Assembly (NCBI GenBank): GCA_946567425.1
Contig: CAMNXF010000001.1
Coordinates: forward strand, 1 to 64,000
Origin: an uncultured Clostridia bacterium
GTDB taxonomy: Bacteria; Bacillota; Clostridia; Oscillospirales; Ruminococcaceae
Direction: 5' to 3'
Length of the DNA stretch: 64,000 nucleotides
Below are positions 58,079 through 58,817 of the stretch, piece by piece. Numbering within the stretch: the first letter of the stretch is position 1; each line of letters begins with the position of its first letter. Both the position numbers and the translations under genes were made by a program. The notes below the pieces were generated by a model that saw only the letters and a program-made list of their open reading frames with translations, had not been told where the DNA came from and did no database searches.

Positions 58079-58108
58079 TTGACTTTTGATATTCAAATAT
58101 GATATAAT
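58079..58108 (+). promoter_or_regulatory. Promoter/operator of the ribbon-helix-helix gene
   Basis: TTGACT, 18 nt, TATAAT. The spacer holds a small palindrome TTTGA-TAT-TCAAA. A near copy of the whole unit occurs at 58372-58401. Confidence 0.78.
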
Positions 58109-58136
58109 TATGTAGGACAAAAGTGAGGTGTATAAA

Positions 58137-58307
58137 ATGAGCCCTAGAACAGGCAGACCGACAGATAATCCAAAACCGTACAGAGTAAATGCACGTCTTG
58201 ATAAAAAGTGTAAAGAAATTCTTGATAAGTATTGTAAACAGGAAAATATTCCACAAATGGAAGCAGTAAGACGAGCAATAAAAAAACTTGAAGAAGATTT
58301 AAAATAA
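58137..58307 (+). CDS. Small ribbon-helix-helix (CopG/Arc-type) DNA-binding protein, 56 aa
   Basis: Not in the ORF track. ATG 58137 follows GAGGTG and encodes MSPRTGRPTDNPKPYRVNAR, then LDKKCKEILDKYCKQENIP and a second helix MEAVRRAIKKLEEDLK. The basic RVNARL strand followed by two helices is the ribbon-helix-helix fold of small repressors. Strong promoter in front, terminator behind. It probably represses its own promoter and possibly the look-alike one at 58372 (inference). Opposite strand to gyrB, so it is a lone small unit inserted between gyrB and secDF. Confidence 0.8.
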   Translation: MSPRTGRPTDNPKPYRVNARLDKKCKEILDKYCKQENIPQMEAVRRAIKKLEEDLK

Positions 58308-58320
58308 TATAACAAAATAG

Positions 58321-58349
58321 CGCTTTGCAAAATTGCAAGGCGTTTTTTT
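58321..58349 (+). terminator. Terminator after the ribbon-helix-helix gene
   Basis: CGCTTTGC/GCAAGGCG with loop AAAATT and one G-T pair, then TTTTTTT. Confidence 0.78.
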
Positions 58350-58371
58350 GTAAAAAAAATTTAAAAAACTA

Positions 58372-58401
58372 TTGACTTTTGGCAGTCAAATATGTTATAA
58401 T
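58372..58401 (+). promoter_or_regulatory. Second promoter/operator, look-alike of 58079-58108
   Basis: TTGACT, 18 nt, TATAAT. The spacer TTTGG-CAG-TCAAA followed by TATG matches the first unit at most positions (TTGACTTTTG....TCAAATATG.TATAAT). Confidence 0.75.
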
Positions 58402-58455
58402 ATTTTTGACATTCAGAATTAAGAAAGTAACTTAAATCTGAATATAAAACAAAAA

Positions 58456-58553
58456 TAAACCGCTGTCCCCCTACCAAGTCGACAACGGTTTATACAGAAA
58501 GGACAAGAAAAACTTATCCAAATCTATTATACTATGGAAAAGGCTTTCTTGTC
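58456..58553 (+). promoter_or_regulatory. Structured leader of the 78-aa gene
   Basis: Two hairpins lie between promoter and gene: TAAACCG-C-TGTC pairing with GACA-A-CGGTTTA (58456-58492), and GACAAGAAA pairing with TTTCTTGTC (58502-58553). Neither has a clear T-run, so they are more likely leader structure than terminators. Function unknown. Confidence 0.5.
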
Positions 58554-58580
58554 AAGTACATTTTGAAAGGAAGTTTTATT

Positions 58581-58817
58581 ATGACAGTCTGGAGTATGAT
58601 TTACAACCGCTATTGCGAGGGAGACCTTGAGATAAAGCCGCCCCTGCATTCGGTATTCAACGATCTGCGGCTTAGGAGGCTCGAAAACGAATTAGGCGTA
58701 TTCGGCGACAAGGCTCACGAAAAGCTCGAAAATGAAGTAGCAAATATGTGTATCGACGCGGAAAGACGAGGGTTCTACGCCGCCGTAAAGATAATGCTCC
58801 GTCTCATTTCCGAGTGA
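58581..58817 (+). CDS. Small hypothetical protein, 78 aa
   Basis: ATG 58581 follows GAAAGGAAG; the track's earlier start lies in that ribosome site. The sequence MTVWSMIYNRYCEGDLEIKP ... LENEVANMCIDAERRGFYAA is helical and soluble. Its pattern recalls the short DUF6809-like proteins of clostridial mobile elements (uncertain). It has its own promoter and structured leader and shares a promoter motif with the regulator gene upstream. Confidence 0.6.
   Translation: MTVWSMIYNRYCEGDLEIKPPLHSVFNDLRLRRLENELGVFGDKAHEKLENEVANMCIDAERRGFYAAVKIMLRLISE

Follow-up and report, generated by a model that had tools for sequence, protein, structure and literature searches.

A split-operon control cassette of probable phage origin, organized like P22 immI, in an uncultured Clostridia genome

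We analyzed a stretch of 64,000 nucleotides from an uncultured gut Clostridia bacterium (the window) and found in it a cassette that joins a gene for a small ribbon-helix-helix (RHH) protein, a leader with a predicted antisense RNA, and a 78-aa output gene. We consider it likely that this is a solitary control cassette, probably of phage origin, that is organized like the P22 immI (arc-sar-ant) region and whose operon was split when a promoter was duplicated. The output gene appears to be double-locked by repressor and antisense RNA. The parts of the cassette, their conservation, and their association with antirepressors can be read from the sequences; from these we infer binding by the RHH protein and a phage origin. 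The features are as follows.

58079-58108, plus strand: P1, promoter of the RHH gene, TTGACT-N18-TATAAT, extended -10, 11/12
58083-58097, plus strand: P1 upstream operator half-site CTTTTGATATTCAAA, from the half-site pairing test
58137-58307, plus strand: 56-aa RHH repressor gene, stop included (coding 58137-58304); protein begins MSPRTGRPTDNPKPYRV; profile matches
58319-58349, plus strand: predicted intrinsic terminator of the RHH transcript, ahead of P2, from a sequence scan
58372-58401, plus strand: P2, duplicated promoter for the leader and the 78-aa gene, TTGACT-N18-TATAAT, 11/12, TG before the -10
58376-58390, plus strand: P2 upstream operator half-site CTTTTGGCAGTCAAA, from sequence
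58404-58415, plus strand: P2 downstream half-site TTTTGACATTCA, a direct repeat of the upstream one; family-wide test
58411-58443, plus strand: extra 5' hairpin of the P2 transcript, from folding
58443-58520, minus strand: predicted antisense RNA, ~75 nt, ends approximate, from promoter and terminator positions and a subthreshold Rfam match
58455-58493, no strand assigned: H1, putative antisense terminator hairpin and sense-leader target hairpin, from a stem permutation test and an A-rich flank
58502-58553, plus strand: H2, hairpin of the leader, GACAAGAAA...TTTCTTGTC, with the antisense -10 inside it, from folding and an arm pairing test
58526-58555, minus strand: antisense promoter TTGACA-N18-TATAAT, 12/12, inside the 78-aa gene leader; same position class in relatives
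58544-58573, plus strand: H3, predicted hairpin CTTTCTTgTCAA/TTGAAAGGAAG, an alternative to H2 that excludes it and sequesters the Shine-Dalgarno sequence, from folding
58581-58817, plus strand: 78-aa DUF6809-like output protein gene, stop included (coding 58581-58814), from remote profile similarity

Repressor gene, promoters, and operators

The 56-aa RHH gene proposed in the first-pass annotation corresponds to an ORF at 58137-58307 that is preceded by the Shine-Dalgarno sequence GTGAGGTG. Its product matches Pfam RHH_1 (CopG-like; 25.4 bits, above the cut-off of 20.5) and PHROG 876, “transcriptional repressor” (E=3e-13), and weakly an Arc-like PHROG (E=0.011). Its nearest solved chains include 2k9i (the ORF56 protein), which we take to be the copy-control protein of plasmid pRN1. 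In two related loci, L005 and L006, an ORF of ~49 aa (MTEKERQDTKMATIYQLRL...) lies 5' of the RHH gene, and in L006 it is continuous and in frame with it.

The two promoters with a common spacer core described in that annotation were confirmed: P1 and P2, whose outer ends delimit the annotated interval (58079-58401), are both 11/12 matches to TTGACT-N18-TATAAT, and their spacers are identical at 14 of 18 positions. The shared core TTTGRNNNTCAAATATG occurs exactly twice in the 2.9-Mb genome, at P1 and P2. The search for further copies that had been suggested was run across the whole genome with a 20-nt version of the core, allowing up to 3 mismatches, and returned no additional site with <3 mismatches.

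In 62 RHH promoters, most of which share the promoter type of P1, we took the best direct or inverted match between the -35/-10 spacer and the 28 nt 3' of the -10. The half-site match was 10.2 within promoters and 5.9 between promoters, a difference that 0 of 5,000 permutations reproduced with as high a within-promoter value. Because the within-promoter match exceeds the cross-promoter match, the two half-sites that flank a -10 seem to form a pair specific to the RHH regulator concerned. The palindromic core once taken for the operator is thus probably its upstream half-site only, the family-wide operator being two half-sites around the -10. At P1, the second half-site is a weak inverted partner (CAAAAG, 58118-58123), and the pairing score of 7 is below that of most of the 62 promoters. 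By binding the half-sites that flank the -10 boxes at P1 and P2, the RHH protein would repress both its own gene and the output, a step for which half-site support is strong.

The predicted terminator at 58319-58349 precedes P2, and there should therefore be two transcription units. Most modules have the RHH and output genes in a single operon; in the window, a second copy of the RHH promoter and the terminator would together have divided it into two units under the same operator type. The P2 copy in L006 retains an RHH-type Shine-Dalgarno sequence and ATG, which suggests that P2 arose from an RHH promoter. This Shine-Dalgarno sequence and ATG (L006 is on G014:C175) open a short leader ORF across the antisense region, which could couple translation to the switch. 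The two sites proved to be related in other strains: L004 and L005 carry both promoters with the same type of core, and L006 carries P2 only. These sequence features support the earlier idea of a small autoregulatory switch with one RHH protein and two matching operator/promoters. They do not favor a two-gene switch built on one palindrome, in place of which we propose an RHH protein, half-sites around the -10, and an antisense RNA controlling a single output gene.

Antisense RNA and leader hairpins

An antisense promoter and RNA in the leader of the 78-aa gene had been overlooked in the first-pass annotation. The promoter, at 58555-58526, is the strongest in the region and the only 12/12 match there. 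A hairpin with a U-tract (H1) lies ~75 nt downstream of it, and Rfam ctRNA_pT181 (RF00242) matches the same stretch and strand below threshold (36.6 bits versus a gathering score of 56). Because the minus-strand promoter, the hairpin with its U-tract, and this weak match coincide, we propose that an antisense RNA is transcribed from the minus strand of the leader. Every Rfam family scored below its gathering score on the predicted RNA, and 12 related loci gave no match.

In the first 200 nt past the RHH stop codon, a limit that leaves out the leader of the four split-operon copies because P2 pushes it further out, 35 of 65 genome and phage loci had an antisense promoter scoring 11/12 or better versus 2 of 325 shuffled controls, mostly in a tight interval 62 to 81 nt past the stop. 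Among 111 RHH genes on viral contigs, 67 had an antisense promoter scoring at least 10 (versus 27 of 333 shuffles), nearly all 60 to 79 nt past the stop; the controls of both scans were single-base shuffles that preserve base composition alone, so the fixed position weighs as much as the score. All eight genes of the 78-aa type show the same succession of H1, H2 with the antisense -10, and GAAAGG with a start codon.

Hairpin stems differ in sequence among leaders, and we therefore compared pairing within and across loci; a MAFFT alignment of 21 divergent leaders yielded no consensus fold, and the YUNR loop motif was not enriched in the leaders. For H1, the stem score was 9.46 within loci versus 4.72 across loci (52 leaders; 0 of 2,000 permutations), and an A-rich flank, corresponding to the antisense U-tract, was present in 44 of the 52. 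For H2, the mean z was -3.6 across 42 leaders, and its arms paired better within than across loci (0 of 2,000 permutations). This within-locus complementarity of H1 and H2 amounts, in effect, to covariation. The signal for H3 was modest (7.45 within loci versus 6.69 across), because the Shine-Dalgarno sequence and the -35 complement are similar in every locus.

Masking the part of the leader covered by the antisense RNA raised mean Shine-Dalgarno pairing from 0.51 to 0.87 in 42 leaders (up in 32, down in 0); in the window leader, it rose from 0.23 when free to 0.97 with the 5' arm of H2 masked. Runs of U are frequent 3' of H3. Based on these predicted folds, we infer an H2/H3 switch in the leader; the folding alone would fit either Shine-Dalgarno sequestration, as in pSK41, or termination, as in pT181.

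The free leader would fold H2 and leave the Shine-Dalgarno sequence open. The promoter on the minus strand, presumably constitutive, would produce the ~75-nt antisense RNA ending at H1, a step for which promoter and terminator are conserved across many loci. This RNA would pair with H1 and the 5' arm of H2, whereupon the 3' arm would pair with the Shine-Dalgarno sequence (H3) and translation would be blocked; transcription may be blocked as well, given the frequent U-runs after H3. With RHH repression added to the antisense block, the output would be silent unless loss or dilution of the RHH protein coincides with an excess of leader transcripts over antisense RNA, for example, upon entry of a new copy into a cell.

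Output genes and distribution

The 78-aa protein is soluble and charged, and its family has a weak but recurrent profile similarity to DUF6809 (PF20648): the window protein itself was unmatched, and 2 of 8 close relatives matched below the gathering score (best E=0.12). Profile searches with the 78-aa protein matched no antirepressor domain, Rep initiator, or known toxin family, and tblastn with a relative (L036) found no match in phages and plasmids. An AlphaFold model of the family suggests, with low confidence, an all-helical protein (pLDDT, 68; pTM, 0.42) and was too weak for a fold search. Of 197 genomes of the order, 87 encode DUF6809. Since 28 of 30 DUF6809 loci lack an RHH gene and leader upstream, we rejected a general association of this domain with RHH/antisense control. 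In many of the DUF6809 loci read (L115 to L144), the gene follows an ORF ending ...MNNIRNRAEEIVL..., unrelated to the RHH cassette.

In phage and prophage copies, such as Streptococcus phage Javan119 and Clostridioides difficile phiCDIF1296T, a Bro-N/ANT, ORF6N, or AntA antirepressor (Pfam) often lies directly 3' of the leader or past 1 or 2 small ORFs, and an antirepressor match was found within 1.6 kb in 52 of 111 viral RHH loci. The window genome has a cassette copy with a Bro-N/ANT antirepressor (L027, at G000:C11:23677), which is probably a prophage. Chromosomal copies have a single small output gene, some of them a clear DUF6809. These two kinds of output are connected by two viral contigs, L283 and L168, each of which carries the RHH gene, the leader, and one or more DUF6809-like small genes, followed by an ORF6N or AntA antirepressor. 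The antirepressor of phage copies stands in, or next after, the position of the DUF6809-like output. The phage- or plasmid-derived module proposed earlier agrees, as regards phages, with the occurrence of this kind of cassette in them. On one fecal phage contig, a skipping-rope RNA (RF02924, 60 bits; L079:966-1045) lies just 5' of the cassette.

The same cassette recurs in many Gram-positive phages and genomes. Of 394 genomes of the order, 29 encode relatives of the RHH protein, and two single-protein RHH queries detected such relatives on 139 to 159 viral-contig stretches. PLSDB contained only 4, of which 3 lie in C. difficile elements of ~130 kb that resemble the phage records. Conservation of the pair was checked in relatives: RHH and 78-aa homologues co-occur in 4 of 61 genomes searched, the window genome included, and most genus relatives have no counterpart of the cassette. 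The module is directly upstream of gyrB in three genomes, and the fourth, on a short contig, has the same flanking sequence; the other gyrB loci examined, several of them short, lack it. The placement between gyrB and secDF noted earlier is correct for the window, the only genome among those read with the secDF neighbor. In G020, the far neighbor resembles instead the remB/DUF370-like gene that flanks gyrB in module-free relatives, and the module there therefore looks inserted.

The window genome has a second chromosomal module on G000:C17 (L017, L022, L040), with two tandem RHH genes, a leader, and a 77-aa homologue, adjoining a trpA-like gene. On G020:C14 (L021, 1300-2800), there are four tandem RHH-leader units, three of which have no output gene; these three have lost the Shine-Dalgarno sequence and kept the antisense promoter, H1, and H2. 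They look like orphan immunity units.

Tandem units without an output, in G020:C14 and G014:C95, also resemble orphan antidotes, as would be expected of a toxin-antitoxin-like locus in which the 78-aa protein is toxic and the RHH protein and antisense RNA are a double antidote. The double lock and the patchy distribution are in keeping with such a locus, but we consider it improbable: the RHH protein has just 56 aa and no toxin-binding tail, the soluble, charged output is unlike typical type I toxins, and known toxin families went unmatched.

Relation to known circuits and implications

The textbook circuit for the preferred reading, a probably phage-derived cassette, is arc-sar-ant, with which Salmonella phage P22 controls its antirepressor. 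The P22 record BK000583 is annotated with an arc operator at the promoter, arc, the sar antisense RNA in the gap between arc and ant, a terminator at the end of arc, and then ant. immI has been described, and the region in which it lies called a moron of P22-like phages (PMC2629481). Judged on DNA features alone, the cassette likewise has a small RHH gene with an operator at its promoter, an antisense RNA that occupies the gap and terminates where the RHH gene ends, and the output next; its operator is seen as paired half-sites at the -10, the pairing at P1 of the window being weak. Several differences are evident. The sar promoter overlaps the start of ant, whereas the antisense promoter here lies ~25 to 55 nt upstream of the output start; unlike in P22, the predicted RNA stops short of the Shine-Dalgarno sequence, and the leader switch would act at a distance. 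The P22 output is ant, and that of the window is the DUF6809-like protein, without the antirepressor domain found in many relatives. The cassette has no mnt, and the window copy has two promoters.

CopG is likewise an RHH protein. In pMV158, the copG-RNAII-repB region is under the dual control of the Cop repressor and an antisense RNA (PMC5703833), and the same three parts stand in the same order as in the cassette, without a Rep output here. In pT181 (stem-loop IV) and pSK41, a stem-loop that buries the Shine-Dalgarno sequence is the off state (PMC5703833). The cassette resembles these in its ~80-nt antisense RNA and in this predicted off state; pT181 and pSK41 have no RHH protein, the cassette has no Rep, and RF00242 is below its gathering score. 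These likenesses, with ctRNA_pT181 as the only Rfam lead and 2k9i among the nearest RHH chains, would fit a plasmid copy-control remnant of pMV158 or pT181 type (copG, antisense RNA, rep) that lost rep and gained another gene. We rate this slightly lower still than a toxin-antitoxin-like locus, since no rep was recognized among the downstream genes examined, many of which are antirepressors, and the few RHH relatives in PLSDB are mostly in phage-like elements. It is very unlikely that only the RHH/operator pair is functional, with an incidental antisense promoter and hairpins that are ordinary mRNA folding: the region is AT rich and chance promoter-like matches are common (mean of 3.1 in shuffles), but the match is 12/12, and its position and terminator hairpin are conserved across many divergent loci.

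Beyond the phage-derived cassette of the window, we tentatively raise a broader possibility, in which a widespread Gram-positive class of cassettes combines an RHH protein and a leader antisense RNA into a zygotic-induction switch, silent in residents and on in naive cells. Phages would use it for antirepressors, and chromosomes would keep solitary copies with a DUF6809-like output, as well as outputless tandem RHH-antisense units that give immunity to incoming elements. Our literature search, which could not reach most subscription papers, found no description of a Gram-positive counterpart of arc-sar-ant. If our reading is right, many streptococcal, clostridial, and gut phages would have their antirepressors, and through these their induction as prophages, governed by an unannotated antisense RNA, and chromosomes would have retained this cassette with a small output protein. 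The cassette would offer a direct handle on the role of DUF6809-like proteins.
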